Assembly (NCBI GenBank): GCA_946481735.1
Contig: CAMLOU010000078.1
Span: 1 to 20,972 of the forward strand
DNA: 20,972 nt
Reading direction: 5' to 3'
Source: an uncultured Cellvibrio sp.
GTDB taxonomy: Bacteria > Pseudomonadota > Gammaproteobacteria > Pseudomonadales > Cellvibrionaceae
Each line of letters begins with the position of its first letter. Positions within the stretch are counted from its first letter, which is position 1. Shown in pieces: positions 1-20,972 of the stretch. The notes under the pieces were generated by a model, which was not told where the DNA came from, searched no databases, and was given only the letters and a program-made list of their open reading frames with translations. Both the position numbers and the translations under genes were made by a program.

Positions 1-1374
1 ACTGCTTTTTCCACCTTGCCCCTCGCGCCGGCCATGCTTGAAAATCTTGCATCGCTCGGCTACCACACCATGACGCCGATCCAGGCGCAGTCCTTGCCGG
101 TGATCCTGGCGGGTCGGGACATTATTGCCAAGGCCAAAACCGGCAGCGGTAAAACGGCCGCGTTTGCGATTGGTTTATTGAATAAGCTGGATGTTAAACA
201 ATTTGCAACCCAGGCGTTGGTGCTCTGCCCCACACGGGAATTGGCGGACCAGGTGGCCAAGGAAATCCGGCGGCTCGCGCGGTTTACCCACAACGTAAAA
301 GTGTTGACACTGTGCGGTGGTGTTTCTATCGGCCCGCAACTCGGTTCATTGGAGCGCGGGGCGCATATCGTGGTCGGTACACCGGGGCGCATTGTGGATC
401 ATCTGGGTAAAGGCTCTTTATCGCTGCAACACTTGCAGCAACTGGTGCTGGATGAAGCAGACCGCATGCTGGAGATGGGTTTTGCGGACGCCCTGGAAAC
501 GGTGCTTCAGGCCTGCCCGCTGCAACGGCAAACCTTATTATTCTCGGCGACCTACCCCGAAGCGATTCAAAAAATCAGCGCGCATTGCCAACAGGATCCG
601 TTATCTGTCACCGTGGATGCGTCGCACAGCGAACAACAGATTGAACAACATTTTTATGAATTGCAGGACGGGCAACACAAGCACGCCGCCATAAAAACAT
701 TACTGGCGCATTTCCAGCCGCAAGCGTCGATTATCTTTTGCAACACCAAACAGCAATGCGATGAAGTCTGCACCGATTTGCGCGCGGCAGGTATCAGCGC
801 CCTGGCCTTGCATGGCGATCTGGAGCAGCGTGACCGCGACCAAACCCTGGTGCGTTTTGCTAACAAGAGTTGTTCCGTGTTGGTCGCCACTGACGTGGCC
901 GCGCGCGGGCTGGATATCAAGGGACTGGATGCGGTCATTAATTATGATCTATCGCGCGACCCGGAGGTGCATGTACATCGTATCGGTCGCACCGGTCGTG
1001 CCGGCGCAACGGGTTTGGCATTGAGCCTGATTGCACCCAATGAAGTGCCGCGCCTGAATCGTGTGGAAGATTATCTGCAGCAAACCCTGACGCTGGAAAG
1101 TTTGCCGGTTACCTCCCGCGATCCAGCGGAATTGCAGCCGCAGATGGTAACGCTGTGCATCGACGGCGGGCGCAAGGAAAAATTGCGCCCCGGCGACATA
1201 CTCGGCGCGTTAACCAAAGACGCCGGTTTGTCCGGTGACACTATCGGCAAGATTGATATCTTTGATTTTTGCGCTTACGTTGCCGTTAACGCAAGGGTGG
1301 CAAAAAAAGCCCTGCAACATTTGCAGCAGGGAAAACTGAAAGGAAAAAAATTCAAGGCGCGCCAGGTGCGTTAA
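1..1374 (+). CDS. dbpA: ATP-dependent RNA helicase DbpA (5' partial)
   Basis: DEAD-box helicase that acts on the peptidyl-transferase region of 23S rRNA during large-subunit assembly. The frame is open from base 1. Its first codons read TAFSTLPLAPA, matching the E. coli DbpA start after Met, so the ATG probably lies immediately before the window and the protein would be about 458 aa (E. coli 457). A TTG at 16 is in frame but would cut the conserved N-terminus. Counting that missing Met as residue 1, visible motifs are AKTGSGKT (46-53, Walker A), DEAD (152-155), SAT (183-185) and HRIGRTGR near the end of helicase domain 2. The last ~75 residues, with LCIDGGRKEKLRPGDILGAL, form the DbpA-specific RNA-binding domain that recognises 23S hairpin 92. 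Its stop is 3 bp from that of the convergent hslO gene, with no terminator between them. Confidence 0.95.
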   Translation, partial: TAFSTLPLAPAMLENLASLGYHTMTPIQAQSLPVILAGRDIIAKAKTGSGKTAAFAIGLLNKLDVKQFATQALVLCPTRELADQVAKEIRRLARFTHNVKVLTLCGGVSIGPQLGSLERGAHIVVGTPGRIVDHLGKGSLSLQHLQQLVLDEADRMLEMGFADALETVLQACPLQRQTLLFSATYPEAIQKISAHCQQDPLSVTVDASHSEQQIEQHFYELQDGQHKHAAIKTLLAHFQPQASIIFCNTKQQCDEVCTDLRAAGISALALHGDLEQRDRDQTLVRFANKSCSVLVATDVAARGLDIKGLDAVINYDLSRDPEVHVHRIGRTGRAGATGLALSLIAPNEVPRLNRVEDYLQQTLTLESLPVTSRDPAELQPQMVTLCIDGGRKEKLRPGDILGALTKDAGLSGDTIGKIDIFDFCAYVAVNARVAKKALQHLQQGKLKGKKFKARQVR

Positions 1375-1377
1375 CGC

Positions 1378-2277: not shown

Positions 2278-2332
2278 TAAAAAAGAATTGTGGCACCATC
2301 AGGTGCGCTGGAGATCATTCGATTAAAGGGAC

Positions 2333-2779: not shown

Positions 2780-2784
2780 AGGTA

Positions 2785-3872: not shown

Positions 3873-3925
3873 CAGTGGTTATTCACTCTGGTGCGGGTAA
3901 ATCCTGCAAAAATTCAGGGCTAAGT

Positions 3926-5342: not shown

Positions 5343-5351
5343 CGACATGAT

Positions 5352-5630: not shown

Positions 5631-5718
5631 GAAGATTTTCCGTATAAGTGTGTATGCTGTGTTCGATTTCAGCGCCTAATACTAACGCGTCTCTACCATT
5701 AATCCAGAGGATTCTCCC

Positions 5719-6255: not shown

Positions 6256-6263
6256 TCCATCAC

Positions 6264-6296
6264 CGAACCTGATCCCGCTCCGCAGGATCAGGTTCG
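6264..6296 (+). terminator. Hairpin after the glutathione peroxidase gene
   Basis: A perfect 12-bp inverted repeat, CGAACCTGATCC and GGATCAGGTTCG, with a 9-nt loop, begins 9 bp after the stop codon. Its position suits a transcription terminator, but the sequence that follows (CTTAATGG) has no T-run. It may instead protect the 3' end or act with Rho. Confidence 0.55.
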
Positions 6297-6620
6297 CTTA
6301 ATGGCGCTTTCTTTGGCCGAACATGACAAAGTTCCCTCCGTCACTGTGACGCAATAGAATATTTTTGCCGTCCTTTTCTGTTCTTTTATAGCCAATCCTT
6401 ATTTAAATTCGCGGATTTCTGAAACCGTATTCATTTTCGCGCTACCTCCTTTGCCATCTACCTGACATGGCCCGACCTTGCCAAACCCAGTATTGGTGCG
6501 GGTTTCATCCCAACAGAATGCTAATAACCCCTGAAATTGAAGACTTTCTCCCTGCGTATGCACCGCTGGTTCTATGCCGGGAAATGGCCGCTGCTTCGTT
6601 GACGGCTAAATAAACTTTGC

Positions 6621-6649
6621 TTGAAACCGGTTACAGATTGAGCCATATT
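6621..6649 (+). promoter_or_regulatory. Predicted sigma-70 promoter of the receptor operon
   Basis: TTGAAA (6621-6626) and CATATT (6644-6649) are separated by 17 bp, giving a predicted start near 6656. The -35 box is part of the LacI-type operator at 6622-6635. The same arrangement recurs before the AGE gene (15877-15905), which strengthens both calls. Confidence 0.5.
6622..6635. promoter_or_regulatory. LacI-type operator, copy 1
   Basis: TGAAACCGGTTACA, 13 of 14 matches to the palindrome TGTAACCGGTTACA derived from the copies in this window. It overlaps the -35 box, so a bound repressor would block polymerase. The likely ligand is the LacI-family protein at 17351-18352. It would control the receptor and the GH5-like lipoprotein. 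Confidence 0.7.
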
Positions 6650-6784
6650 AAGGTCCATCGGCGTGATCATATAAATAGATTGGCCCAGAGTCAGTTACCG
6701 CTGCGCCGCAGAACAACAAAACAGCAGATCGCCAGAATCTGTGAACAAAGCAATAACAATAAATGCACCTGGAGAATCACTACC

Positions 6785-6889
6785 ATGCACGCTAACACCC
6801 TGCACAATACCTCCCGATGGCCCTGCGTTTACGCAGTGCGTTTATTAGCTTTTGGTTTGGATTCGCCGCAGCGATTGCAGACCGACTAA
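6785..6889 (+). CDS. Possible 34-codon leader ORF or gene relic
   Basis: Reads MHANTLHNTSRWPCVYAVRL and ends QRLQTD. GGAGA stands 9 nt before the ATG, and the frame sits inside the predicted receptor leader. The first ~25 residues look like the start of a signal peptide (polar start, a basic residue, a hydrophobic stretch). The hydrophobic character continues in the neighbouring frame (FGFAAAIAD), as if a frameshift had broken an older exported-protein gene. It could be a translated leader peptide, a relic or chance; I have no homologue for it. Confidence 0.3.
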   Translation: MHANTLHNTSRWPCVYAVRLLAFGLDSPQRLQTD

Positions 6890-7016
6890 ATCCCCTTTTC
6901 TGATTTTACCGCTCAAGTTTCTGCGACTGGTTACGCCTGATCAGTCCGTCAGGAGGCTTGTGCGCCTATTACACCCATAAAGTAAAAAAATGCGAGATAA
7001 CGATAAGAGGAAGCCC

Positions 7017-10000
7017 ATGATGTATAAAAACAGCAGTATCAACACGCGCAAAAAATTACTCGCGCTGGCGATCGGTTGCACTTTGTCCGGCGGCAACCTG
7101 TACGCGCAGGAAGAAGCACCCACGGTGAGTGAAGACCTGGGTGAAAACATCGAAGAGATTGTGGTTCGCGGTGTACGTGCATCGCAGGCCAAGGCGATTG
7201 ATATCAAACGTAATTCCAGAACTGTGGTGGATTCCATCGTGGCGGAAGACATCGGCAAATTGCCCGATGTCACCATTACGGACTCATTGCAGCGTGTAAC
7301 CGGTGTGCAGATTACCCGCGAAGCAGGTGAGGGCACCTCGTTAAATATTCGCGGTATGCCGCAAGTGTTAACGACGCTGAATGGCGAACAATTTCTGAGC
7401 CCCTGGGCCATTACTGAAGTCCAGGCAAATTATTCTGATATTCCGGCTGGCATGATTTCCGGTGTGGATGTGTATAAATCGCAATCCGCCAATATGCTGG
7501 CCGGTGGTATTTCGGGTGTGGTGGATTTAAAAACCCTTGATCCGTCCACATTGGAAGAAGGTTTCACCACGCGCGTGCGTCTTGAAGGCGCAGGCGGACG
7601 TTACTCCAGTCGCGAGATTCAGGAAGACGGTTCCAAAGAATGGCGTGATCCGGATTACACCGCAGGTCTCGTGTTTGGATTCAATAACGGTGACGACTTT
7701 TCGATTGTTACCAGCTTGTATAACTCCAATACCTATAACGCTAACTATTCGATGTATGAAGATCAGAGGCTAGGATTCCTTGATTCGCAAGGCGGCATGC
7801 CGACAGATAAATACGATCTCAATGGTGATGGCGACCTTGTTAACGATTGGTATGTCGTGCCTGGGGAGTTCGGAGCTTCCAGCCAATTTATGGAGCGTGA
7901 ACGTACCGGTGGTTCCATCAGCGCCCTTTTTGATATCAATGAAAACTGGTCAGTACGCGGTGATTTCTTCTATACCGAAATGGATCAGTACAACCGTGGT
8001 GTAAAAGCTGGATTTAATGGTAAGCACACGCCGGAATCTTTTGAGCAAAATGGTACGGCTGCACAGAACAATCAGGAAATCTATGACGCAATCCGTAGCG
8101 GAGAGGTTGACTTTGGCTCAACGATTTCATTCGTTGATAACGATGGTGTAACACAAACTCGTGACCTTTATGCCTTGCAGGTGGTGGATGTATGGGCGGC
8201 AGATTTCCAAACGTCGTCGACCAGCGAAATCACCAAGACGGCTGCATATAATAGCAATTTTGAGGTGAACTACACCAACAACGACAACCTTGAAGCAAGC
8301 TTCCGCGTTATTCATGCCAAGGCAGAGCAACAATACCGTAAGGCCACCTTCCAGCAGGGTACGCCCGCATGGTTATGGGTGGATGAAGATGGTACACCCG
8401 GCAAGGATCCGGTTGACGGTTTTAACGTGACTGTAGATTACACTGGCGAATATCCGTCATTCGCATGGGAAGGCGATTTGTCGGACTCCAGCGTACTGAA
8501 TCAATACCAAGGGTTTGCCGAAGGAAAAAATATTGATGCGGATTTGAATGCGGCGCGTTTCGATGTCAAGTTCACTGTAGATCAAGGCCACTTTGAATCT
8601 GTTGATGCTGGTGTTCGTTACGGCATTCGTGAAGCCAGCCATAACAAATTTAATTATGTAACACCTACCGGTCGCTACACCGATTGGGAAGACCCTCGTG
8701 TACCCGCTGATAAACGCTATCGCCTATTGCCGGGCAACCTGATTTGGCAGAAATTCCCTAACTGGCTCAAATTTGATTACGCCGAAACCAACGTCAGCCT
8801 GATTGATATCGGTGGCTTGCAGGACAACGGCTTTTCCGGTGCGGATACCGTGGCTTTCTATGATTTTGGTCCGATTAAGGGCTTTGAAGGTGGCGTAGCT
8901 GCTTTGGCGCCCGACCAGTGGGACAACCCCTACGAATTTATGAACCGCTTGTATCCCGGCACGCGTACTGTGAATGATCCTGGCTACACCTACCGTGTCC
9001 AGGAAGATTCGATAAACGCTTATGTGCAATTTAATTTCGCCAATGACAACGAAGGCCTTTTTGGTTTGCCCTATAACGCCAATATCGGTATTCAGGCGGC
9101 ACAGGTTGATCGTGAAGTGGACAAAAGTGTTGTGCCGGAAGTGCTGGATTCCTTCAACTCCATCGGTTACGACGATTGGCAAAAAATTGCTTACGTATAT
9201 GACGTTGAGCGTTTCACCAATTCAAAAACGGAAATATTACCGTCGTTTAACCTGAATATTTTTCCAACGGATGACACTGTTGTGCGCCTGGCTGCTGCGC
9301 GCACCATGACGCGGAATGACTTGGAAAATGTCGGCGCGTCCATGGCACTGTGGTATCAACAGTGTCCCAAAACTTATGAAAACGGCGATCCTGTCATGGT
9401 GCCGAATCCATCAACCGGTGGTGAAATGCAAGACACTGTCGGTTGTATCGGTGGTGGTGATGATCGCGGTAATCCCGATATCGAACCCTGGTTAGCGAAC
9501 GTCTATAACTTCTCCAGCGAATGGTATTTTGATGAAAATGCTATTCTCGGGGTTGGTCTGTTCATGATTGATGTTGAGCAAGCGGTGCAGTCATTCCAGG
9601 AGCAGCGTCGCTTCCTGGATATGGATGGCATTGATCGCGGACGCCTGGCGAATATCTGGACTACGCAGAACGTCGGGGCATCTGATCTTTACGGTGTTGA
9701 ATTTGGTTACAAGCAACCCTTCTCTTTCCTGGAAAATAATATTCTCAACAAATTCGGTGCGGAATTTAACTACACCTATTCACACAGCGAATCAGAAGAT
9801 GTTGACGTTGAGGGTAATACCTTGCCGCTGGTGTCCAACTCTGAACACCAGACCAACATGATTTTGTGGTATGACCACGCCGGCCTGAACGTGCGTCTGG
9901 CATACAACTGGCGCAGTGAAGAATACCTGGGCATGGTGGGTGTGAATTCCAATGCGGCGGTATTGAATATGGCGCAGTGGCTTGAGCCCGCCGGCTATCT

Positions 10001-10169
10001 CGACCTGTCGGTCAGCTATTGGCTGAACGAGCATGTGAGCTTCTTCCTGAACGGTACCAACCTGACCGAACAAAGTCGTAAAAGTTATGCGCAATACGAA
10101 GATCAGTTCCATTCGCTCTGGGTACAAGAAGCGCGTTACTCAGCTGGTGTGAACCTTCTTTTTAACTGA
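7017..10169 (+). CDS. TonB-dependent receptor, carbohydrate-type
   Basis: Outer-membrane active transporter of the large class common in Xanthomonas, Caulobacter and Cellvibrio relatives, usually tied to glycan uptake; the substrate here is probably manno-oligosaccharide by context. AGAGG lies 6 nt before a tandem ATGATG at 7017, giving 1050 aa; an ATG at 6990 is less well placed. A signal peptide of about 30 residues ends NLYA. A TonB-box-like EEIVVRG follows (46-52), then the plug (VAEDIGKLPDVTITDSLQRV, then GTSLNIRGMPQV). The rest is a beta barrel with alternating aromatic strands, ending YSAGVNLLFN, near the usual terminal Phe. No SusD-like partner is nearby. The GH5-like lipoprotein starts 64 bp downstream and probably shares the transcript. 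Confidence 0.93.
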   Translation: MMYKNSSINTRKKLLALAIGCTLSGGNLYAQEEAPTVSEDLGENIEEIVVRGVRASQAKAIDIKRNSRTVVDSIVAEDIGKLPDVTITDSLQRVTGVQITREAGEGTSLNIRGMPQVLTTLNGEQFLSPWAITEVQANYSDIPAGMISGVDVYKSQSANMLAGGISGVVDLKTLDPSTLEEGFTTRVRLEGAGGRYSSREIQEDGSKEWRDPDYTAGLVFGFNNGDDFSIVTSLYNSNTYNANYSMYEDQRLGFLDSQGGMPTDKYDLNGDGDLVNDWYVVPGEFGASSQFMERERTGGSISALFDINENWSVRGDFFYTEMDQYNRGVKAGFNGKHTPESFEQNGTAAQNNQEIYDAIRSGEVDFGSTISFVDNDGVTQTRDLYALQVVDVWAADFQTSSTSEITKTAAYNSNFEVNYTNNDNLEASFRVIHAKAEQQYRKATFQQGTPAWLWVDEDGTPGKDPVDGFNVTVDYTGEYPSFAWEGDLSDSSVLNQYQGFAEGKNIDADLNAARFDVKFTVDQGHFESVDAGVRYGIREASHNKFNYVTPTGRYTDWEDPRVPADKRYRLLPGNLIWQKFPNWLKFDYAETNVSLIDIGGLQDNGFSGADTVAFYDFGPIKGFEGGVAALAPDQWDNPYEFMNRLYPGTRTVNDPGYTYRVQEDSINAYVQFNFANDNEGLFGLPYNANIGIQAAQVDREVDKSVVPEVLDSFNSIGYDDWQKIAYVYDVERFTNSKTEILPSFNLNIFPTDDTVVRLAAARTMTRNDLENVGASMALWYQQCPKTYENGDPVMVPNPSTGGEMQDTVGCIGGGDDRGNPDIEPWLANVYNFSSEWYFDENAILGVGLFMIDVEQAVQSFQEQRRFLDMDGIDRGRLANIWTTQNVGASDLYGVEFGYKQPFSFLENNILNKFGAEFNYTYSHSESEDVDVEGNTLPLVSNSEHQTNMILWYDHAGLNVRLAYNWRSEEYLGMVGVNSNAAVLNMAQWLEPAGYLDLSVSYWLNEHVSFFLNGTNLTEQSRKSYAQYEDQFHSLWVQEARYSAGVNLLFN

Positions 10170-10179
10170 TATGCGTTTG

Positions 10180-10200
10180 TGCGGCGCTATCGGTGCCGCA
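10180..10200 (+). other. Intercistronic hairpin between receptor and lipoprotein genes
   Basis: TGCGGCGC and GTGCCGCA pair over 8 bp (one G-U) around a 5-nt loop, 10 bp after the receptor stop and before the lipoprotein ribosome-binding site. No T-run follows, so it is more likely an RNA-stability or differential-expression element than a terminator. Confidence 0.45.
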
Positions 10201-10233
10201 TAACAACAATAAAGATTAATGACGGAGTTTCCT

Positions 10234-12843
10234 ATGAAAACCAAACTGCATTTGTTAGCGCTGCTGACCAGCGCAATGGTATTGCACGGCTGCGGTGGCG
10301 GCGACATGCTCGGCTCATCCGACGCTGATGATCACAAATTAATTCCTGAAGAAGTGACTGAAGATTTAACGCGCCCGCGCCCTTCCGAAAATGCGCCGGT
10401 GATGAAAACCGAAGGCACCAAGATCTATTTGGCCGACGGTAATGAAACGATTGTGCGCGGTGTTAACCTGCAATACAGCGATAATCCATTGCAAATGATT
10501 ACGGCTTTTCCAGCCATTGCTGAAACCGGTGCGAACTTCGTGCGTATCCAGTTAAGTGAAGAAACCAGCGAGGTCGAACTGGAAGCCGCGTTGAATATGG
10601 CCATTGAAAATAATATGGCAGCAATTCTCACCTTAAACAGTCCCAACCTGAAATGTAACGATGATGAAGCGCTGTTTACCGAAGCTGTAGAAGATTTATG
10701 GTTGGAAGAATGGTTGCCGATCATCGCCCAGGATCGTTACCAGGATAAGATCATGGTCAACATGGCTAGCGGGTGGGGGCCGAAAGCGATCTTCAATGGA
10801 TCCAGTTTTGGTTACCGCACTTACATCGATACGCACAAAGCAGTCATCAGACAATTCCGTCGTGCAGGTTTGAAATTTCCACTGGTGATCGATGCTCCTG
10901 GGTGCGGGGAAGACTTCCACGCGTTTGAGTCTATTCGTGCAACCGAACTGATGGCGGCAGATGAGCAGAAAAACCTGGTGTTTTCGGTTCATGCTTATGG
11001 TTCAACCTGGAATAATCGCACCAAGATTGACTACGGTATCTCCAGAATTACCAGCCAGAACGTGCCTGTGATTGTCAGCGAATTTGGTGGTTCAGATTTA
11101 GGTGATAGTCCCGTTAAGCTGCACCATATTCTCGAGCGAGGTGCAGGTGACTATGCGCTGGAAATTGACACCCAGTGGAAAACGCCGGATGACAAAGCGG
11201 GCATTATGGTTCCCTTCAGCGAACCGGTTGATGCGACCAATTCAGAAATTGCTTTTGAGGTTCACATTGACGAAAGCTTTGCCGAATACCCGCAAATGGG
11301 TATGCAATTGTATCTTCGCGACGTCAACGGCGAATATGCAAATCTTTCATGGCACACGGTTGAGAACTTTGATGTAGGCACCTGGAACAGCCGCAAATAT
11401 ACGGTCAAAAATAAAGGCTCTTTTGGCTGGGCTTCCGATGCATTTGATATTACCCAGGTAGCACGCATCGGTATTGAATTAATTGCCAATGGTAAGCCGG
11501 TTGAGGTTGGTGGAAAAATTCAGCTGGATAACTTGCGTGTGATTAATAGCAGCGCCGCTATTGAGATGGCCAGTATGACTTTTGATGCTGACCTGCAAGG
11601 CTGGACGGATAATGGCAAAGGTACCATCTCTTACGGTGATGGTTATATGAGTGCTATGCCGGATGCTGAAGGAAACATAGAAGCTATTACCAACAGCTTG
11701 CCATCCGTAGATTTCTCCAAACCCGTCCGGATTTCGGCTAAGGTAATGGTTCCTGAAAAATATGCAGGTTCCTGGATCTATTTCAAATTTTTCAACAACG
11801 TGAACAACCCAAACAACGCTTGGTTTGAGTCGACAAACCTGGGTGGTGATAGCTTCACCTATGGGGAGTGGACAGAAGTTTCTGTCGATGCGACCTTCCC
11901 GGAGGGCATCACCTCCATTGGTATTCAAATGGGTAATATCGGTAAAACCAGCGAGGTAATTGCCACGCCCGATGAAGCGATTCTCTTTGACGATATCGTG
12001 ATCTCCACTGTTGAAGAAAGTGCATACGAATACGGTGTGCAATACAGCGGTACGTTTGATGCGGATGCAGACGGCTGGGCTTATATCAGTTGGGGCGGTG
12101 CAGCAAATGTTGATGTCAGTAATGGCGTTATGAATGTCACGCCCAAAGATCCGGGCACCGCACGAATTGATATCCAGAAAGGTAATATTGATTCAGTAGA
12201 GAAATTAAACCTCCAGGATCCGTTCGTGGTGAAGACACGCGTCTTTCTGCCCGCTTCGCTAGAGGGTACAGGCTTCAATTTGCAGTTCTACATGCAGGAT
12301 TCTGGCTGGGCAAATCACTTTGAAGTGATCAATCTGAGCGGGGATGAATTGACCTACGGTGACTGGAACGATTTTGATGTCGAAGTCGCATTCCCCGAAG
12401 CTTTCTCACGCGTCGGCGCTCCCAAGCATATTGGTTTCTCTTTCATGCTTGAGGGCGGCAGCTTACCGATGAATGATCCCATTCAGATTGATGAGGTTAT
12501 TTTCGAAGGGCTGATTGAGGTTGAAAAGGAAGAAGAGGTCCGCGCGTTGGTTGATTTCCATTACGTGCACCAAGGGGAATCAGTTGCTGTCGATATTGCT
12601 GAAGGCGGCATCGTCGCTGATGATTACGCAGATAAATTTGCTGTCAGTCAACGCTCCGCCCCCTTCAGCTGGGCAGCCTGGTCCTGGTACGGAAACGCCA
12701 GCGAATTTGCCGGATGGGACATGACTACCACCATCGATTCTTTGGATGGTATTACTGATCGGGGTGTAGAGATTGTTTTAGGTAAAGGCGGCATTGTTGA
12801 AACGCTGTTAGGCAGTGTTCCAGATGAAGAAGCTGCTGAATAA
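10234..12843 (+). CDS. GH5 mannanase-like lipoprotein with inserted beta-sandwich modules; probable pseudo-enzyme
   Basis: 869 aa from the ATG at 10234 (GGAG 6 nt upstream). The signal peptide ends VLHGC, so C20 is the likely lipidated residue, though His at -2 is unusual. Residues ~55-300 resemble a GH5 barrel: GVNLQ, FVRIQL (R104), VIDAPGCGED, VFSVHAYG (H253, Y255) and VIVSEFGG (E283, nucleophile position). The acid/base motif, normally N-E after strand 4, reads NMASGWG, with S179-G180 in place of Asn-Glu, and the strand-3 His position is N135. Three beta-sandwich modules of ~140-160 residues follow (about 303-440, 446-592, 602-762); the last two share FDAD-x-x-GW and LTYG-type motifs and resemble carbohydrate-binding modules. 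The strand-8 signature FSWAAWSWYGN appears only at 811-821, so the modules seem inserted within the barrel. It probably binds mannan at the cell surface for the adjacent receptor; residual catalysis is not excluded. Confidence 0.8.
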   Translation: MKTKLHLLALLTSAMVLHGCGGGDMLGSSDADDHKLIPEEVTEDLTRPRPSENAPVMKTEGTKIYLADGNETIVRGVNLQYSDNPLQMITAFPAIAETGANFVRIQLSEETSEVELEAALNMAIENNMAAILTLNSPNLKCNDDEALFTEAVEDLWLEEWLPIIAQDRYQDKIMVNMASGWGPKAIFNGSSFGYRTYIDTHKAVIRQFRRAGLKFPLVIDAPGCGEDFHAFESIRATELMAADEQKNLVFSVHAYGSTWNNRTKIDYGISRITSQNVPVIVSEFGGSDLGDSPVKLHHILERGAGDYALEIDTQWKTPDDKAGIMVPFSEPVDATNSEIAFEVHIDESFAEYPQMGMQLYLRDVNGEYANLSWHTVENFDVGTWNSRKYTVKNKGSFGWASDAFDITQVARIGIELIANGKPVEVGGKIQLDNLRVINSSAAIEMASMTFDADLQGWTDNGKGTISYGDGYMSAMPDAEGNIEAITNSLPSVDFSKPVRISAKVMVPEKYAGSWIYFKFFNNVNNPNNAWFESTNLGGDSFTYGEWTEVSVDATFPEGITSIGIQMGNIGKTSEVIATPDEAILFDDIVISTVEESAYEYGVQYSGTFDADADGWAYISWGGAANVDVSNGVMNVTPKDPGTARIDIQKGNIDSVEKLNLQDPFVVKTRVFLPASLEGTGFNLQFYMQDSGWANHFEVINLSGDELTYGDWNDFDVEVAFPEAFSRVGAPKHIGFSFMLEGGSLPMNDPIQIDEVIFEGLIEVEKEEEVRALVDFHYVHQGESVAVDIAEGGIVADDYADKFAVSQRSAPFSWAAWSWYGNASEFAGWDMTTTIDSLDGITDRGVEIVLGKGGIVETLLGSVPDEEAAE

Positions 12844-12881
12844 ACGTTTCGGAAGCTGTTAAACCTGCTCCCCACCTTTGC

Positions 12882-12908
12882 AATCGCCCGGCAGTTAGCT
12901 GGGCGATT
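12882..12908 (+). terminator. Hairpin after the GH5-like gene
   Basis: AATCGCCCGGC and GCTGGGCGATT form an 11-bp stem with one G-U pair and a 5-nt AGTTA loop, 38 bp after the stop codon. No clear T-run follows. It probably ends the receptor-lipoprotein transcript, or protects its 3' end. Confidence 0.5.
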
Positions 12909-13146
12909 TGCTGTTAAGCTTTGTGGTTTGGCTGCTGAGTGCCGCGTTACTCCAGTCTTGCCTGGCCTTCATCCCGCCGCTTCTAGTCCATCCAACCCTA
13001 AACCCCACTTTACGCGCCTATCCATACGAATAAGTTATAAATAATGCGCCATGTTAGCGCTGCCTCTTCTCAACCCTGGCCTATACTTGGGGTTAACGCC
13101 GCTCATAATGGGGGGTGATCTGTCATTTTGTCGAAAGAAGAACTCC
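12909..13146. other. Intergenic region before the GGDEF-EAL gene
   Basis: About 240 bp between the hairpin and the chosen start of the GGDEF-EAL gene. I found no copy of the TGTAACCGGTTACA operator here, unlike the other gene starts of the locus, so the signalling gene is probably not in the same regulon. An ATG at 13051 is in frame with the downstream protein but encodes a non-PAS, poorly conserved-looking extension. Confidence 0.4.
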
Positions 13147-15693
13147 ATGGAACGCAATGTATTACGCACCTTGGGCGATAACATCCCGGATTTAATCTAC
13201 GCGAAAGACCGTGAGGGACGCTTTACCTTTGGCAATCAGGCATTTCTGCGTATGGCGGGTGCGGCGACGCTGGAGGATATCCTGGGGAAGAACGATTTTG
13301 ACCTGAATCCGCCGGATCTCGCCCAGGGCTATGCCGAGGATGACCAGGCGGTGATGCGCTCCGGTGAGCCCCTGGTGGATCGCGAAGAGATTGTGGTGGA
13401 TGCGAAAACCGGTGAATCGCGCTGGCATTCCACGACCAAGGTGCCGTTGCATGACGATGCCGGCAATATCATCGGTACGATGGGGATTACCCGCGACATT
13501 ACCGCCAGCAAACGTGCAGCGCTACAGGTGCGCCAGCTCAATGCCGAACTGGAAGAACGCGTGGCCGAGCGCACGGCGGAGTTGCAGGCGCTGAGTGAGG
13601 TACTAGCCTACGAGCGTAATTTGATGCGCATCCTGGTGGATTCGGTACCCGACAGTATCTTTGCCAAAGATGCGCAGAGTAAATTCCTGCTGGCGAACAA
13701 TGCGGTAGCGCGCGGTATGGGTGCTACACCGCAGGACTTGTTGGGCAAAGATGATTTTGCTTTCTTTCCGCCGGACATGGCCCAGCGCTTTTATGATGAT
13801 GAACAACGAATTCTGCAAACCGGCGAGCCCATGCTCAATCAGGAGGAGCCCGCAGTCAATAACCAGACTGGCAAGATGCGCTGGTTGCTGACCAGCAAAT
13901 TGCCGGTACGCAATGAGGCGGGCGATATTGTGGGCCTGGTTGGTATTGGCCGCGATATCACCCTGCGCCGCGAAGCCGAGCTGGCGTTGCGCGAAAGTGA
14001 AGAGCGCTTTCGCAGCCTGACCGAACTCTCGTCGGATTGGTATTGGGAGCAGAACGCGCAGCTCGCCTTTGTTGAACTGGAAGACCCCAATGGCAAGTCC
14101 GGCTTCCAGCGCGAGGAGTTGCTGGGAAAAACCCTGCGGGATTTGCCCACCACGGAAATCCTCTCCGGCTCGTGGGATGAGCACGATGCAGTGGTGGCCG
14201 AGCATAAGCCCTTTCGCGATCTCGAATTGCGCCATGTCAAAGGCAATGGCCGCGCGTGTTACCTCAGCCTGACCGGCGTGCCGGCCTTCAACGCCAAGGG
14301 CGAATTTCGGGGTTATCGCGGCATCGGTCGCGATATTACCGACCGCAAAACCTCGGAAGAACGCATTCAGTATCTCGCCACCCACGACAGCCTGACCTCC
14401 TTACCCAACCGCTTCATGTTTAGCGAAATCCTTAATCTCGCCATCGAGTCAGCGCGGCGTAACGCGCGCAAACTGGCGGTGCTGTTTATCGATCTGGATC
14501 GCTTTAAAAATATCAACGACACCCTCGGGCATGAGGCCGGTGATCTGTTGCTGAACGAAATGGCGGGCCGCTTCAAGCAATGTCTGCGGGCGAGTGATGT
14601 GGTGGGGCGCCTGGGTGGCGATGAGTTTGTCATCCTGATCCAGGAGCTCGATAACCCCGAGCAGGCGGCAACGGTTGCGCGCAAGATTTTATCGGCAGCG
14701 GTCAAGCCGGTATCGGTGTATGGCCAGGAATGTCGGGTGACCGCCAGTATCGGGATCTGCGTCTATCCGGACGATGCCGAGGATGAACATACCATCATGA
14801 AGAGCGCGGACATCGCCATGTACCGCGCGAAAGAAGAGGGCAAGAACAACTACCAGTTCTACTCGCCGGATATCAAGGCGCGCTCGCTCGAGCGCCTGAT
14901 TATGGAAAATAACTTGCGCCTGGCGCTGGAGCGCAATGAGTTCTTCCTGCACTACCAGGCCAAGCGCAACCTCAAGACTGGGGAAATCGCCGGTGTGGAA
15001 GCACTGGTGCGCTGGCAACATCCGCAGTTGGGCATTGTATCGCCGGCCCAATTTATTCCCCTGGCAGAAGAAACCGGCCTGATTGTGTTGATCGGACGCT
15101 GGGTTATAAAGACGGCCTGTGAGCAAAATGTTGCCTGGATGAAGCAAGGGTTGCCGCCGTTGTGCATGGCGGTGAATTTGTCGGTGCGCCAATTCTTTGA
15201 TGATGGCCTGATTAACGACGTGGCTACCGCCCTGAAAGAGACCGGCATGGAGCCGGGGCTGCTGGAGATGGAAATCACCGAAGGCATGGTAATGCAGGAC
15301 GCCGAGCGCGCCATTCGCATCTTGTCCGCCATTAAAAGGCTGGGCGTGCGCCTGGCGATTGACGACTTCGGTGTGGGCTACTCGTCGTTGGCACAGATCA
15401 AACGTTTCCCCATCGATACCCTTAAGATGGACAGTTCCTTTATCCGCGATATTCCGCAAAATCGCGAAGATCGCGCCATTACCGAGGCGATCATCGCCAT
15501 GGGCAAGACCCTGAGCCTGACGGTGATTGCCGAGGGCGTTGAAACCGAAGAGCAGGAGACCTTCCTGCGCGAGCACGCCTGCGACCAGTCCCAGGGTTAT
15601 TACTTCAGTAAACCCATTGCGCCGGAAGAGTTTGTGACCTTCATGCGCCAGCAAACGCCCGCGCTGGAAGCCTACGTCAACGGCAAAGGCTAA
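13147..15693 (+). CDS. PAS-PAS-PAS-GGDEF-EAL cyclic-di-GMP signalling protein
   Basis: Predicted cytoplasmic sensor with both diguanylate cyclase and phosphodiesterase domains, 848 aa from the ATG at 13147 (start of MERNVLRTLGDNIPDLIYAKD). In-frame starts at 13051 or 13108 are possible. Two similar PAS domains (about 1-125 and 155-285) are separated by a coiled coil (QLNAELEERVAERTAELQAL); a third, more divergent PAS spans ~290-405. The cyclase site is intact (GGDEF at 490-494), with an inhibitory RxxD (RASD) five residues before it. The EAL domain is also intact: EAL 618-620, then NLSVRQF, EITEG, DDFGVGYSSL and AEGVETEEQ. No transmembrane segment is visible. The net activity cannot be told from sequence. 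It interrupts a glycan-uptake locus, so it may link nutrient or redox state to attachment, but this is inference. Confidence 0.92.
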   Translation: MERNVLRTLGDNIPDLIYAKDREGRFTFGNQAFLRMAGAATLEDILGKNDFDLNPPDLAQGYAEDDQAVMRSGEPLVDREEIVVDAKTGESRWHSTTKVPLHDDAGNIIGTMGITRDITASKRAALQVRQLNAELEERVAERTAELQALSEVLAYERNLMRILVDSVPDSIFAKDAQSKFLLANNAVARGMGATPQDLLGKDDFAFFPPDMAQRFYDDEQRILQTGEPMLNQEEPAVNNQTGKMRWLLTSKLPVRNEAGDIVGLVGIGRDITLRREAELALRESEERFRSLTELSSDWYWEQNAQLAFVELEDPNGKSGFQREELLGKTLRDLPTTEILSGSWDEHDAVVAEHKPFRDLELRHVKGNGRACYLSLTGVPAFNAKGEFRGYRGIGRDITDRKTSEERIQYLATHDSLTSLPNRFMFSEILNLAIESARRNARKLAVLFIDLDRFKNINDTLGHEAGDLLLNEMAGRFKQCLRASDVVGRLGGDEFVILIQELDNPEQAATVARKILSAAVKPVSVYGQECRVTASIGICVYPDDAEDEHTIMKSADIAMYRAKEEGKNNYQFYSPDIKARSLERLIMENNLRLALERNEFFLHYQAKRNLKTGEIAGVEALVRWQHPQLGIVSPAQFIPLAEETGLIVLIGRWVIKTACEQNVAWMKQGLPPLCMAVNLSVRQFFDDGLINDVATALKETGMEPGLLEMEITEGMVMQDAERAIRILSAIKRLGVRLAIDDFGVGYSSLAQIKRFPIDTLKMDSSFIRDIPQNREDRAITEAIIAMGKTLSLTVIAEGVETEEQETFLREHACDQSQGYYFSKPIAPEEFVTFMRQQTPALEAYVNGKG

Positions 15694-16080: not shown

Positions 16081-16178
16081 ATGTGCGTGGCTTTTTGGAA
16101 AGCGCGCTTTCGCTTGTGCGACAATCACCCCCGGCTATTGGTGGCCTGAACCTTTAATCAATGAGGGAAGCAGTAACT

Positions 16179-17342
16179 ATGTCCCAGGACATGACTCAGC
16201 AATTGATCGCGGCGGCGCGCCGTATGGAAATATGGATCAGGGACCAGGCCCTGCCGTTGTGGCAAAAGGTCGGTTTTGACCCTGAAACTGGTGCTAACTA
16301 CGAACGCCTGCTGCCCGATGGGCAACCGGATCTGGAAGCCAGAACCCGCGTGCGGGTCCAGGCGCGGCAAGCATTTTTTTACGCAGCAGCCTATCATCGC
16401 GGCTGGTGTCCCCAGGGCCAGACGCTGGCGACCGGCCTGCTGAACTTTGTTCACCAGCGTGCGGCCCATCCCACCGCCGGTGGCGGTTATACCCATCTGC
16501 TCGACAAACACTTCACGGTTATCGATACCAAACAGGATCTCTACGATCACGCCTTCTTTGTGCTGGCCAACGCCTGGTGCTATCGCGCCTTTGGCGATGA
16601 AGCAGCACTGCGCGAGGCAGAGAAACTGGTAGCCCATCTCGACGCAAAATTTGGTGCGGACTACGGCGGTTGGATCGAAGGTGACTACGCCTATGCCTGT
16701 CGTCGACAAAACCCGCATATGCATTTGTTTGAAGCTTTTTTAGCGCTTTACGATGCGACTCAGGATGCAAAATGGTTGGCCCGGGTGGGCGAATTATTTG
16801 CGCTATTCCAGAGCCGTTTTTTTGATCCGCACCAACAAGTTCTGCTCGAATTTTTCAACGATGACTGGACCCGTTGCGCCGATGAGCGCGGCGATGTGGT
16901 GGAGCCCGGTCACATGATGGAATGGGTGTGGTTGCTGGATTGGTACAGCCGTCGTTCCGGCCGCCCGGTCAAGCGTTACACCGATGCGCTCTACAACAAA
17001 GCGCTGGAGATCGGCGTCGATAAATCCGGTTTACTGTTCGATGCGGTGATGCCCGATGGCCGCGTGCTGGATCACAACAAGCGCTGCTGGGGGCTCACGG
17101 AATTTATCAAGGCCAACCTGGTGCAGATCCGCGCGGGCGACCCAAAAGCCACCGAGCGTGCAGTGAAAGGCGTGGAGGATTTATTTACCTATTACTTGTG
17201 TGCCTCAACGCCCGGTTCCTATGTGGACCAACGTGGGGCTGACGATGAAGTGGTGGTGGATGTCGCGCCGGCCAGCACGCTCTACCACCTGATCGTACTG
17301 GCGATGGAGTTGCTGGATCACTGCGAAACTTATAGCGCCTGA
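16179..17342 (+). CDS. AGE-superfamily sugar isomerase/2-epimerase, probably acting on D-mannose
   Basis: 387-aa (alpha/alpha)6-barrel enzyme; GGGAAG 8 nt upstream supports the ATG at 16179 over an in-frame ATG at 16161. Superfamily motifs are in order: RVRVQARQAFFYAAAYH, LYDHAFFVLA, NPHMHLFEAFLALYDAT, VVEPGHMMEWVWLLDWY and PASTLYHLIV, providing the three conserved histidines and the acidic partners. The R-x-R-x-Q-A-R-Q motif and the length are closer to mannose isomerases/2-epimerases than to cellobiose or mannobiose 2-epimerases, whose equivalent segment reads differently. The predicted role is D-mannose to fructose or glucose in the cytosol, feeding mannose from mannan into central metabolism. 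A mannose-epimerising enzyme of this superfamily is known from a Cellvibrio galactomannan cluster. Mannobiose epimerase activity is the main alternative. The stop codon lies within a hairpin shared with the convergent lacI-type gene. Confidence 0.85.
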   Translation: MSQDMTQQLIAAARRMEIWIRDQALPLWQKVGFDPETGANYERLLPDGQPDLEARTRVRVQARQAFFYAAAYHRGWCPQGQTLATGLLNFVHQRAAHPTAGGGYTHLLDKHFTVIDTKQDLYDHAFFVLANAWCYRAFGDEAALREAEKLVAHLDAKFGADYGGWIEGDYAYACRRQNPHMHLFEAFLALYDATQDAKWLARVGELFALFQSRFFDPHQQVLLEFFNDDWTRCADERGDVVEPGHMMEWVWLLDWYSRRSGRPVKRYTDALYNKALEIGVDKSGLLFDAVMPDGRVLDHNKRCWGLTEFIKANLVQIRAGDPKATERAVKGVEDLFTYYLCASTPGSYVDQRGADDEVVVDVAPASTLYHLIVLAMELLDHCETYSA

Positions 17343-17357
17343 GCCTCGGCTCAGGCG
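17336..17357. terminator. Bidirectional hairpin spanning both stop codons
   Basis: CGCCTGAGCC and GGCTCAGGCG form a perfect 10-bp palindrome with 2 nt between the arms (effectively a CTCG tetraloop). The TGA of the AGE gene (17340-17342) and the TGA of the regulator gene (read from 17353 to 17351) are mirror halves of it. No T-run follows on either side, so termination strength is uncertain. Confidence 0.5.
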
Positions 17358-18352
17358 TGCGTCGGTGCCGGGCCGGTGCTTTTGCGGATGATAAATTCAG
17401 TCGGTAATACACACACGGTTTGACTGAGGGTTTCGCCTTCAATCAGCCGCAACAGCATATCCATCGCCATCTTGCCCATCTCTTCTGCCGGTTGCGAAAT
17501 CGTGGTCAGGCTCGGATCGCAATATTTGGCGTAGGCAATATCGTCAAACCCGGTTACCGACATATCTTCAGGGATGCGAATGCCCTGGGATTTCAACGTC
17601 TGCATTGCACCGATGGCCATTTCGTCGTTCATGGAAAAGATCGCCGTCGGGCGTTCTTTCATATTGCAGAACTGGAAGGCGCTGTTCAGACCGGACCACA
17701 TGGTGAAGTCGCCTTCGGCAATTAAATCTTTATCAAACGGAATACCGGCGGACGCCAGGCTTTCTTTATAGCCTTCCAGCCGATCAATGGTGTGCGGGTT
17801 ATCTTTCAGGCCGGAGATCACGCCGATGCGGCGGTGGCCCAATGAAATCAGGTAATCCACCATGGTGCGTGCCGCGGCGCGGTTGTCGATACGAATGGAG
17901 GGGCCGGTGGTAAATTCGCAGCCACAGGCATTCACACAGGCAATGCCCGGCGGAATATTGCTGTGGCTTTTCTCCGAGCTGGGGCGCAACTGGATGATGC
18001 CGTCCGCCAGGCGGGTTTCCACGCGGCGAATATAGTCCTGTTCACGTTCCGAGGTGCCGCGCGTATCGCCCAGCAGCACGGCATAACCTTTTTGTTGCGC
18101 ACGATCTTCCAGGGCGCGAATAAACAGGGAGTAAAACGGGTTGGCGATATCAGGAACCAGCACCACCACCGCATAGGAACGTGTGGAGCGAAAGTTGCGC
18201 GCGAGCATGTTGGGCCGGTAACCCACCTGGGCGATAGCGGTTTTGACCTTGGCCAGGCTTTCATTGGATACCTTTTCCGGTGCGCTCAGGGCGCGGGACA
18301 CGGTAGCAACCGACACTCCGGCTATGCGGGCAACATCTCGAATATTCGACAT
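17351..18352 (-). CDS. LacI/GalR-family transcriptional regulator
   Basis: 333 aa from the ATG at 18352, where the classical N-terminus MSNIRDVARIAGVSVATVSR begins; an earlier in-frame ATG at 18418 would add 22 residues before the helix-turn-helix. The DNA-binding domain covers residues 4-55, with recognition helix SVATVSRAL and hinge RPNMLARNFRS. The periplasmic-binding-protein-like sensor domain follows, with VPDIANPFYS, LGHRRIGVISG, NDEMAIGAMQTLK and VTGFDDIAYAKYCDPSLTTI, the usual sugar-site landmarks. Being divergent from the symporter gene and convergent with the AGE gene, it is the obvious candidate to bind the TGTAACCGGTTACA sites and to respond to mannose or a manno-oligosaccharide. 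Direct repeats just upstream of its start (18402-18426) could serve autoregulation. Confidence 0.93.
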   Translation of the reverse strand: MSNIRDVARIAGVSVATVSRALSAPEKVSNESLAKVKTAIAQVGYRPNMLARNFRSTRSYAVVVLVPDIANPFYSLFIRALEDRAQQKGYAVLLGDTRGTSEREQDYIRRVETRLADGIIQLRPSSEKSHSNIPPGIACVNACGCEFTTGPSIRIDNRAAARTMVDYLISLGHRRIGVISGLKDNPHTIDRLEGYKESLASAGIPFDKDLIAEGDFTMWSGLNSAFQFCNMKERPTAIFSMNDEMAIGAMQTLKSQGIRIPEDMSVTGFDDIAYAKYCDPSLTTISQPAEEMGKMAMDMLLRLIEGETLSQTVCVLPTEFIIRKSTGPAPTHA

Positions 18353-18788
18353 AGGACGACTCTTGGGCGCTGGTTCAACAAGGATTGGTATGAAACGGCA
18401 ACAGACGTTATGTAACAAACGTTATGACAATTTCGGCTTATTTATCGCTTTAAACGTGCCGTGACATCGAAAATCTACTACACGTTTGCAACTCTGACTA
18501 GCAAAAAAAGTTGTAACCGATTACATTATGCATCTCTGAGTGTAAGTTGATCGCTATCAGGCATCATGGCATTATCAGCCCGCCCTTATCGGGCGTGGCC
18601 TCGCAGGTATTGCGCAGGTTTGCGCGGGCGTCCAGGTTGATGGCAGAACCTGCGTCGCCATCGAATGGTCGAGATTTTCGCGCTTTGTCCTCGGCAGGAT
18701 CGATTGATACCGGCATACAAAAAAATGCTCGCTTCAGCGAACAACATACTAACGGCCACCGGCCACTCAATAATAATTGGAAGTACTC
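18353..18788. other. Divergent control region between regulator and symporter
   Basis: About 436 bp. On the regulator side it carries an 11-bp near-identical direct repeat (18402-18412, 18416-18426) and an AAACGTG/CACGTTT inverted pair (18452-18458, 18481-18487). The operator lies at 18512-18525. The remaining ~260 bp form the symporter leader, with only small hairpins (for example CGCCC/GGGCG near 18581-18595). A longer frame that overlaps the symporter start (18547-18933) is not credible as a gene. Confidence 0.5.
18512..18525. promoter_or_regulatory. LacI-type operator, copy 4
   Basis: TGTAACCGATTACA, 13 of 14 to the consensus, in the divergent region between the regulator gene (start 160 bp away) and the symporter gene (start 264 bp away). 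It could control either or both. Confidence 0.7.
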
Positions 18789-20651
18789 ATGCAGCTGGCA
18801 ACTCTCGATCTTGCGATCATCCTGTTATATATCCTGGCAACATTGGTGGTCGGCTTCTGGATTTCAAGCCGCGCCTCCAAAGACATCAAAAGTTATTTCC
18901 TTGGCGGCAACAAACTGGCCTGGTGGCAATTAGGTTTGTCCAACGCCTCGGGTATGTTCGACATCAGCGGGACCATGTGGTTGGTCTACCTGTTGTTCGT
19001 CTACGGTCTCACCAGCGTTTACATTCCCTGGTTATGGCCGGTCTTCAACCAAATTTTCCTGATGGTTTTCTTGTCCGTGTGGTTGCGCCGTTCTGGCGTG
19101 ATGACCGGTGCGGAATGGATTACCTTTCGTTTCGGTGAAGGCACGGGCGCAAAACTGTCTCACTTTGTCGTCGTGTTGTTTGCGCTTATCAGTGTGATGA
19201 GTTTCCTGGCCTACGGTTTTATCGGTATCGGTAAATTTGCGTCGGTATTTTTGCCGTGGAAATTTTCCGCAGATCCTTACTGGAACGATGTCGCCTACGG
19301 TTTGATCATCACTGCACTGACTACGATTTACGTGGTGAAGGGCGGTATGTTCAGTGTGGTGTTCACCGAAGTACTGCAATTTTTCATCATGACGGTTGCC
19401 TGTATCGCCGTGGGCATTATTGCCATGAATCAGGTGTCGCCAGAGATGCTTGCAACGGTGATTCCCGACGGCTGGACCAGTGTATTTTTTGGTTGGGAAC
19501 TGAATCTGGATTGGTCCCACGTATTGCCTGCGGCCAATGAAAAAATCCTGTCGGACGGCTACTCCATGTTTACCATCTTCTTTATGTTGATGGTATTAAA
19601 AGGCGTGCTCCTGAGCATGGCCGGCCCCGCGCCAAACTACGACATGCAGCGTGTGCTTTCTGCCAAGACACCGGTAGAAGCGGCGAAGATGAGCTGGTTT
19701 GTGAACGTGGTGCTGATTTTCCCGCGTTATATGTTGATCGCTGGTTTAACGGTATTGGCGCTGGCGTTTTTTATGGACGACCTGCGCGCGATGGGCCCCA
19801 ACGTGGATTTTGAACAGATCCTCCCGTTTGCGTTAAAAAATTATATTCCCACCGGTTTGCTCGGCTTGTTGATCGCCGGTTTGCTCGCCGCCTTTATGTC
19901 GACCTTTGCCGCCACCACCAACGCCGCACCGGCCTATGTGGTCAACGATATTTACAAGCGCTACATCAACCCCAATGCGGACGCTAAAAAATATGTCTAT
20001 CTTAGTTATACCGTCTCAGTGATCTTCGTGATCCTGGGGGTGGGCATTGGTTTGTTTATTCCGTCATTGAATGTGGTGATCCAGTGGATTGTGAGTGCGC
20101 TCTTCGGTGCTTACACGGCATCCAACGTGCTCAAGTGGTACTGGTGGCGTTTCAACGGTTTCGGTTATTTCTGGGGCATGATCACCGGCTTTGCCATCGC
20201 CATGCCGTTGATCTTTACCGACATTCATCCGATCAATGCATTCCCCTTTATGTTCGCGGCTTGCTTGCTGGTGTGTATCGGTGCATCGCTCGCGACCAAA
20301 CCGGACGATATGGAAGTGCTGAAAAAGTTTTACCTGAAAGTGCGCCCCTGGGGTTTCTGGGGTCCGGTGTTGGAAGCCGCGCGTAAAGATCATCCTGAAC
20401 TCAAAGCCAACACGGACTTTGGGCGCGATGCAATTAACGTTATTGTCGGGATTATCTGGCAAACCGCGCTGGTGGCGGCGCCGATTTTTATGGTGATCAA
20501 GCACTGGCAGGAATTTATTATTTCGATGATCGTGGTGGCACTGACCAGCCTGTTCCTGTGGCGCAACTGGTACGTGAAACTGAAAGATTATCCGGACGAT
20601 ATGCCAGCGGACTATTTGCCGCAAAATGACACGGGTGTAAGTAAGCCCTGA
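18789..20651 (+). CDS. Sodium:solute symporter (SSS family)
   Basis: 620-aa inner-membrane Na+-coupled transporter, probably for mannose or a small manno-oligosaccharide. The ATG at 18789 has GGAAG 6 nt upstream; a TTG four codons earlier is in frame. The first helix (LDLAIILLYILATLVVGFWI) is followed by SSRASKDIKSYFLGGNKLAW, the classical SSS signature region, then SNASGMFDISGTMW. About 13-14 hydrophobic segments are visible, with the conserved LIAGLLAAFMSTFAATTNAA in the second half, which resembles the Na+-site helix of the family. The C-terminus is hydrophilic, with a further helix pair. Its place after an operator and directly before a GH130 phosphorylase gene supports import of the phosphorylase substrate. 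The exact sugar cannot be read from the sequence. Confidence 0.9.
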   Translation: MQLATLDLAIILLYILATLVVGFWISSRASKDIKSYFLGGNKLAWWQLGLSNASGMFDISGTMWLVYLLFVYGLTSVYIPWLWPVFNQIFLMVFLSVWLRRSGVMTGAEWITFRFGEGTGAKLSHFVVVLFALISVMSFLAYGFIGIGKFASVFLPWKFSADPYWNDVAYGLIITALTTIYVVKGGMFSVVFTEVLQFFIMTVACIAVGIIAMNQVSPEMLATVIPDGWTSVFFGWELNLDWSHVLPAANEKILSDGYSMFTIFFMLMVLKGVLLSMAGPAPNYDMQRVLSAKTPVEAAKMSWFVNVVLIFPRYMLIAGLTVLALAFFMDDLRAMGPNVDFEQILPFALKNYIPTGLLGLLIAGLLAAFMSTFAATTNAAPAYVVNDIYKRYINPNADAKKYVYLSYTVSVIFVILGVGIGLFIPSLNVVIQWIVSALFGAYTASNVLKWYWWRFNGFGYFWGMITGFAIAMPLIFTDIHPINAFPFMFAACLLVCIGASLATKPDDMEVLKKFYLKVRPWGFWGPVLEAARKDHPELKANTDFGRDAINVIVGIIWQTALVAAPIFMVIKHWQEFIISMIVVALTSLFLWRNWYVKLKDYPDDMPADYLPQNDTGVSKP

Positions 20652-20811: not shown

Positions 20812-20972
20812 ATGAGTAATTTTAAAAGCGCAGTACAAAACCTGTTGAAAGAGCACGAGGCGCTGGTGACGAAAACCAATGTGCCCAGAGCGCAGGGCAA
20901 CGGTATCTACACCTGCTACGAAAATCCGATCCTCACGGCGGAGCATGCGCCCATCTTCTGGCGCTACGACCT
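20812..20972 (+). CDS. GH130 beta-1,4-mannosylglucose phosphorylase (3' partial)
   Basis: Only 53 full codons are in the window. The ATG at 20812 has AGGG about 10 nt upstream. The protein opens MSNFKSAVQNLLKEHEALVT, continues with NVPRAQGNGIYTCYENPILT, and reaches AEHAPIFWRYDL at the edge. The E-A-L, G-N-G and P-x-L-T-x-x-H-x-P-x-F-W-R-Y-D pattern is that of GH130 subfamily 1, the 4-O-beta-D-mannosyl-D-glucose phosphorylases, rather than the manno-oligosaccharide phosphorylases of subfamily 2. The reaction would give mannose-1-phosphate and glucose in the cytosol from Man-Glc, derived either from glucomannan or from mannobiose after 2-epimerisation. Catalytic residues lie beyond the window. 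Confidence 0.8.
   Translation, partial: MSNFKSAVQNLLKEHEALVTKTNVPRAQGNGIYTCYENPILTAEHAPIFWRYD

Follow-up and report, generated by a model that had tools for sequence, protein, structure and literature searches.

What becomes of a mannanase-like protein that is predicted to keep its barrel, has lost the Asn-Glu pair expected of an active enzyme, and is encoded next to a TonB-dependent receptor? This question is raised by a lipoprotein gene in a 20,972-nucleotide stretch from an uncultured Cellvibrio sp. (contig CAMLOU010000078.1 of assembly GCA_946481735.1, positions 1 to 20,972; the whole stretch is hereafter called the window). We consider the protein, with a probability of roughly 0.7, to be a receptor-associated, mannan-binding, non-hydrolytic pseudo-mannanase that derives from a GH5_8 beta-mannanase and is held as an outer-membrane lipoprotein. 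The basis of this reading is the predicted fold, the loss of the Asn-Glu pair (N-E), the retention of other catalytic-site residues, the strict linkage to a receptor, the mannan-related neighbouring genes, and the largely joint evolution and apparent joint exchange of the two genes.

The Asn-Glu position in the window protein and its relatives

The only Pfam match of the window lipoprotein is PF00150 (GH5, E 2.3e-9), which places it outside the SusD sequence family, and its nearest solved sequences by phmmer are bacterial beta-mannanases (1wky, E 6.4e-23; 2whj, E 1.6e-20; 1bqc, E 5.4e-17). These entries presumably correspond to the GH5_8 enzymes named in the next sentence. Subfamily GH5_8 is described in PMC4642672 and PMC8952944 as including the mannanases of T. 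fusca, Bacillus JAMB-602 and B. agaradhaerens. The predicted model of the window protein consists of a GH5 barrel with beta-sandwiches, and its fold match is of the GH5_8 type. The barrel is divided into two parts (residues ~55-305 and ~785-862) with about 480 residues between them, as a preliminary description of this DNA had implied, and the VIA-align range of the protein (55..859) has the C-terminal part inside it. Since the stretch INIANEWFG of 1wky lies opposite VNMASGWGP of the query without a gap in the phmmer alignment with solved bacterial mannanases, the Asn-Glu pair that a GH5_8 beta-mannanase carries after strand 4 is now Ser179-Gly180. The frame, coordinates and codons first given for this position are correct (AGC at 10768-10770 for S179, GGG at 10771-10773 for G180), and by alignment the strand-7 Glu and its Arg, His, Tyr and Trp neighbours are in place, again as described (R104, H253, Y255, E283 and, in strand 8, W816/W818). 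In one respect the preliminary description must be corrected: it took N135, at the strand-3 His position, as a further loss, an argument that is rejected here because most N-E relatives likewise lack His and carry Trp there (e.g., MVMFWEEEG and MPMLWEGEG).

Homologues were scored among the 7996 candidates with the most shared words and 0.55-1.75 times the query length, a filter that under-samples ordinary shorter mannanases. Of 114 scored homologues, 96 lack N-E, 17 keep it and one is unaligned there. The same S-G is found in P0002 (99% identical to the window protein) and in P0003-P0005 (73-82%), so that the substitution is not peculiar to this copy and a sequencing error or lone mutation is ruled out. 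Among 36 gene copies whose neighbourhoods were read (the window included, and copy G425 at a contig edge excluded), N-E is present in 10 and absent from 26; E283 is also gone in 13 of these 26, with Asp in one of the 13. The later loss of E283 in other clades suggests that this residue, too, is dispensable. In the R-G clade, which includes the C. japonicus protein (P0081, identified by the source's own name), His253 is replaced by Ala and Tyr255 by Lys. L075, L076 and R-G proteins such as P0081 combine R179, Ala253 and Lys255 with a kept E283, possibly forming a salt-bridge network in place of the catalytic centre. One genome (G511) carries two receptor-lipoprotein pairs, of which one is N-E (L084) and the other D-G (L074). 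A single-sequence scan of genome contigs gave no match and an alignment-based scan gave ten loci; plasmids yielded distant GH5 matches only, found in 6 records at 24-29% identity and 26-30% query coverage.

To place these differences on phylogenies, a 48-row full-length tree was built with the motif columns removed, using 32 of the 36 locus rows (L048, L079, L080 and L085 omitted) and 16 of the 114 homologues. The presence or absence of N-E changes at least five times on this tree, a count that varies with the rows used: one change on the 36-row locus tree, two on the receptor tree and three on a 76-row barrel tree. A 17-row clade containing the window (support 100) stands apart from a 13-row clade with N-Q, N-G or D-G (99), P0109 (S-Q) and P0111 (H-K) are nested in starred groups alongside N-E proteins, and a single clade of the 13 N-E rows, when forced, is rejected (p-AU 7e-61). 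The expectation that orthologues beside the same receptor would share the substitution holds for all 17 rows of the window's clade and fails for the 10 of 36 pairs that keep N-E; other clades lack N-E too. Because N-E is general in GH5 and is present in the GH5_8 paralogues of the same genomes, the changes are best read as losses. It should be noted that these are quick trees without bootstrap, in which the positions of P0086 and of the L005+P0092 branch are not firm, and that the paralogue rooting of the 76-row barrel tree is weak (the outgroup row L022 is miscut and has a branch length of 7.95, L040 is left out, and the family base is not resolved).

The ratio of nonsynonymous to synonymous divergence (dN/dS) was estimated for pairs of relatives with dS < 2.5 and dN < 0.35, which gives five pairs, one of them N-E; the window has no close DNA relative for such a pair. 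Whole-gene dN/dS in the four pairs without N-E is 0.036, 0.047, 0.118 and 0.19, with several dS values close to saturation, and barrel-only values are 0.038-0.114 in the three pairs for which dS could be estimated. These four pairs, dead by the N-E measure, are under purifying selection. In three of the four, dN is lower in the barrel than in the insert. Compared with P0084, an N-E protein from Saccharophagus, the window protein is 47% identical over the N-terminal barrel and 28-33% over the three inserted domains.

The receptor partner and joint evolution

The window receptor, the first gene of the pair, has a Pfam Plug match at residues 74-177 (E 2.8e-14) and matches NCBIfam TIGR01782 (TonB-Xanth-Caul) with 479 bits against a cut-off of 310. 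The adjacency originally remarked upon proves to be invariant: all 35 related loci have a receptor orthologue directly upstream in the same orientation, which with the window makes 36 of 36 copies. These upstream receptors are 49-72% identical to that of the window, and the spacing is -72 to +91 bp by open reading frame limits. Most main groups are common to the receptor and lipoprotein trees (Mantel 0.84, 36 rows, 0/5000; for L005, whose receptor is broken by ambiguous bases, only the longer piece was used). HSP33, used as a proxy for the species phylogeny, shows a weak correlation with each of the two (0.32 and 0.34), and the partial Mantel correlation of receptor and lipoprotein given HSP33 is 0.84 (0/5000 permutations) over 32 rows, comprising 31 of the 35 loci and the window, with four genomes lacking a fetched HSP33 locus omitted and L074 and L084 belonging to one genome. 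Receptor and lipoprotein mostly evolve together.

A comparison with the close relative L082 (protein identities of 90% for HSP33, 96% for GPx and 94% for the GGDEF-EAL protein) shows how the pair may be altered between related genomes. Gene order is the same through the GGDEF-EAL gene, after which ~4.6 kb of extra DNA follows. The flanks of the pair are 82-88% identical. DNA identity per 200-base step is 73-92% at 5000-7399 and 92% at 13000-13199; between 7400, close to where the plug ends, and 12999 it is 30-67%. The 5' part of the receptor gene (signal and plug) is thus conserved, and overall protein identity is 62% for the receptor and 32% for the lipoprotein. Since the low-identity stretch at 7400-12999 lies between similar flanks, the receptor barrel and the lipoprotein differ as one block. 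In L082 the PAS-GGDEF-EAL gene, 88% identical in DNA to that of the window, directly follows the differing block. Similar breaks were found in L002/L003 (both named Cellvibrio sp.), L078/L002, L078/L076 and L073/L050, and L077 and L003 are alignable throughout. These patterns suggest that receptor barrel and lipoprotein can be exchanged jointly; faster divergence of both genes, instead of exchange, retains a small likelihood. A physical partnership would predict joint exchange, and exchange is no proof of partnership.

Gene context, proposed role and competing explanations

Table 1. Coordinates of the lipoprotein gene, its parts and its neighbours in the window
Feature	Position	Strand	Basis
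TonB-dependent receptor, first gene of pair, plug ~7209-7520	6990..10169	+	Pfam, NCBIfam
Candidate pseudo-mannanase lipoprotein, 869 aa	10234..12843	+	
Signal peptide, lipobox VLHG-C20 at its end	10234..10293	+	lipoprotein class judged by eye
N-terminal GH5_8-type barrel part, strands 1-7, residues 55-305	10396..11148	+	secondary structure, fold match
S179-G180 in place of Asn-Glu acid/base pair, codons AGC GGG	10768..10773	+	codon read, alignments
E283, nucleophile-position Glu kept	11080..11082	+	codon read, alignments
Insert, three predicted beta-sandwich domains, helix 7 to strand 8	11149..12543	+	secondary structure, Foldseek
C-terminal barrel part, strand 8 with W813-W818, residues 785-862	12586..12819	+	phmmer second segment
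10-bp hairpin 3' of stop codon, no clear T run	12883..12907	+	minimum free energy (MFE), z-score
PAS-GGDEF-EAL protein between receptor pair and mannan-type genes	13051-15693		
GlcNAc 2-epimerase (AGE) family protein	16161..17342	+	PF07221 E 8.7e-56
LacI-family regulator	17351..18418	-	Pfam
Sodium:solute symporter (SSF)	18777..20651	+	PF00474 E 1.3e-31
GH130-like gene start, 53 codons, cut at window end	20812..20972	+	tblastn

The genes downstream of the pair (Table 1) suggest, together with those of related loci, the use of beta-mannan, perhaps galacto- or glucomannan. The GH130-like start is 53% identical by tblastn over 53 residues to a protein of L046 that matches PF04041, beta-1,4-mannooligosaccharide phosphorylase; matches of the window AGE protein to the NCBIfam mannose isomerase and cellobiose epimerase models are far under cut-off. 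Relatives of the window's AGE, LacI and SSF proteins occur in 4 of the 35 loci (L008, L046, L083 and L089). Domains were scanned in ten neighbouring proteins picked from four of the 35 loci and in two more, which gave GH130 and AGE in L008 and L046, GH26 and CE2 in L004, an acetylesterase in L006 and L008, and in L006 also Melibiase_2, which we take to be GH27. L007 has a GH26 gene next door. GH26 genes, counted without the genome of the window, are present in 33 of the 34 carrier genomes, so that cutting enzymes are available elsewhere. Another receptor gene, in L002, lies beside two proteins with a GGGTAGWMAA-type start (1191-5261), presumably tryptophan-halogenase-like.

Of 150 aligned lipoprotein rows, 147 have Cys at position 20 and three have a gap there. 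Many members show good conservation of the linker that follows the predicted lipid anchor (residues 29-56, DxxKLxPExVxED..RPSENAPV), a possible site of receptor contact. The insert appears to comprise domains at about residues 306-440, 444-592 and 598-765 (limits by eye), and its best Foldseek match is the tandem carbohydrate-binding module (CBM) structure CBM22 4xup. The window insert was assigned to no CBM family, the match to 2c26 reaching only E 0.038. In some relatives the insert region matches PF21253 (mannanase binding domain), and PF18329 ('Surface glycan-binding protein B xyloglucan binding domain') is matched by 3 of 27 A1 members and by P0086, P0105 and P0109, all outside A1. The hairpin after the stop codon (fold 12865-12925, MFE -22.9 kcal/mol, z -2.9) is absent from the terminator scan list and possibly marks the end of a two-gene transcript; promoters and terminators show no surplus over shuffled sequence.

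From these data we infer that the lipoprotein would be exposed at the cell surface beside its receptor, in a physical complex with it. Mannan chains or oligosaccharides would be held uncut in the old substrate cleft and by the three beta-sandwich domains and then handed over to the receptor, while cleavage would be left to separate mannanases of GH26 and GH5_8 and the products of the GH130-like, epimerase-family and symporter genes would act in later steps. Loss of N-E would remove the proton donor, and E283, R104, H253, Y255 and the conserved aromatics could still bind sugar. The interpretation put forward in the preliminary description is partly supported: it stands as regards a barrel that is kept without its catalytic pair, and as regards the fixed receptor partnership, if not the strand-3 His. 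A wider proposal is held only tentatively, and we regard it as somewhat less probable than its negation: that functional equivalents of SusD and surface glycan-binding proteins (SGBPs) were made several times from a mannanase in Gammaproteobacteria, each being dead, docked on and co-evolving with the receptor barrel, and swapped between species as a receptor-barrel-plus-lipoprotein cassette.

Several observations weigh against a purely binding partner that evolves with its receptor. E283 is retained in 13 of the 26 copies and 89 of the 96 homologues without N-E, so some chemistry may persist, and the 10 of 36 pairs with N-E mean that a dead enzyme is no requirement of the pair. The window insert lacks any Pfam match, the C-terminal barrel part is 31% identical to P0084, no better than the insert, and L001/L002 have a higher dN in the barrel (0.103) than in the insert (0.083). 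Cotranscription is suggested by two features, the intergenic gap and the hairpin. Joint evolution also has exceptions: the receptors of L049 and L087 are 94% identical and their lipoproteins 57%, with DNA similarity stopping inside the lipoprotein gene so that the match is confined to its N-terminal part; N-Q rows group with N-G/D-G rows in the lipoprotein tree (99) and weakly with N-E in the receptor tree; and P0006 and P0007 resemble the window protein unevenly along their length. These exceptions indicate that the lipoprotein gene is also mosaic. The C-terminal end of P0006 is nearly letter for letter that of the window protein, at 58% identity overall.

The main rival explanation holds that the protein is still an enzyme in which E283 acts although the built-in acid/base is gone: its substrate might be activated or otherwise special, it might be a transglycosidase, or the base might come from outside, as ascorbate does in plant myrosinases. 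The widespread E283 would fit this explanation, as would R104, H253 and Y255 in the window. In a search for a compensating acidic residue, Asp or Glu was found at residue 185 (10786-10788), five past the lost Glu, in 63% of the 57 S-x rows and 77% of the 39 R-G rows and in not one of the 27 N-E rows; the window has Ala there. Both the S-x and the R-G class were picked for having E283, so that its 100% frequency in them is uninformative, and residues such as 167, 244, 301 and 774 are also acidic mainly in the S-x class. As E283 is lost in 13 of 26 copies without N-E and the R-G clade has replaced His253 and Tyr255, chemistry is not the common function of the family, and we consider continued catalysis unlikely. 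We likewise give rather little credence to the barrel being a mere scaffold that docks on the receptor and displays the three inserted binding domains while the old cleft stays empty. The insert is indeed present in 27 of 27 aligned A1 members, N-E or not, and some clades lack all five compared catalytic-site residues with the predicted fold intact. Against an empty cleft, the S-x class retains most residues conserved in the N-E class, and the window and P0084 are more alike in the N-terminal barrel than in the insert, as given above.

That close relatives differ so strongly at one locus, in receptor barrel as in lipoprotein, would also be expected if exchange served mainly to escape phages or bacteriocins that use the receptor, with the lipoprotein as its shield; this is very improbable, given the mannan-type genes near the pair in the window and several relatives and a conserved mannanase fold that shielding alone leaves unexplained. 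A decaying pseudogene would account for lost catalytic residues and has almost nothing else in its favour, as the window and the 35 loci have open frames of at least 840 residues, dN/dS is well below 1 in four pairs, and the substitution is common to a large clade. A receptor-associated, mannan-binding pseudo-mannanase is the reading that we prefer.

Comparison with known systems

SusD-like partners are described in PMC8319329 as known from Bacteroidetes only, which raises the question of how bulky glycans are loaded onto the TonB receptors of Gammaproteobacteria. The apparent repeated loss of catalysis, with place, fold and partner kept, would make this question testable in C. japonicus through P0081, and since one kind of receptor pair exists in catalytic and probably dead forms, it offers a natural series for the change from enzyme to binding protein. 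At least five members without N-E (P0012, P0033, P0035, P0056 and P0058) are named 'cellulase family glycosylhydrolase' by a source, so that likely non-enzymes are included when the enzymes of these bacteria are counted.

Compared with the GH5_8 beta-mannanases (2whj, 1wky, 1bqc/2man), the family described here lacks Asn-Glu in the window, has a barrel interrupted by ~480 residues, carries a predicted lipid anchor in the window protein, and has a TonB receptor beside every copy examined. It resembles the SGBPs of Bacteroidota in that a lipoprotein gene adjoins a TonB transporter gene, and in the predicted stacked beta-sandwiches; some relatives, though not the window protein, match PF18329 (SGBP_B_XBD). 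The counterpart to these proteins originally proposed is favoured by the PF18329 and PF21253 matches of relatives and disfavoured by a window insert without a Pfam match. Unlike the Bacteroidota systems, the receptor is of the TIGR01782 type, a Pfam scan of ten window proteins found no SusD, and the old glycosidase is itself the candidate binder. Utilisomes are complexes in which SusCD is joined with an SGBP and with a glycosidase of the cell surface (PMC7618045).

The GH26 mannanases of Bacteroides, as described in PMC13357471, also have a barrel interrupted by a binding domain and reach the outer membrane through a type II signal peptide; they differ in being GH26, in having a single inserted domain (CBM112) and in having been studied as active enzymes. 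RagAB (PMC11817032), which has distinct alleles, and BtuB-BtuG (PMC10404256) are likewise described as TonB receptors with a dedicated surface lipoprotein; they differ in belonging to Bacteroidota and in serving the uptake of protein or vitamin B12. The lipoprotein considered here has an apparent glycosidase ancestry. The RagAB and BtuG lipoproteins are not known to be related to glycosidases. No paper on the present protein family was found in the literature searched, with most subscription journals outside the search. SGBPs and utilisomes, a CBM inside a mannanase, and receptor-lipoprotein pairs are already known separately; what appears to be new, judging from the literature searched, is a gammaproteobacterial family of mannanases that are linked to a receptor and have apparently been inactivated several times.
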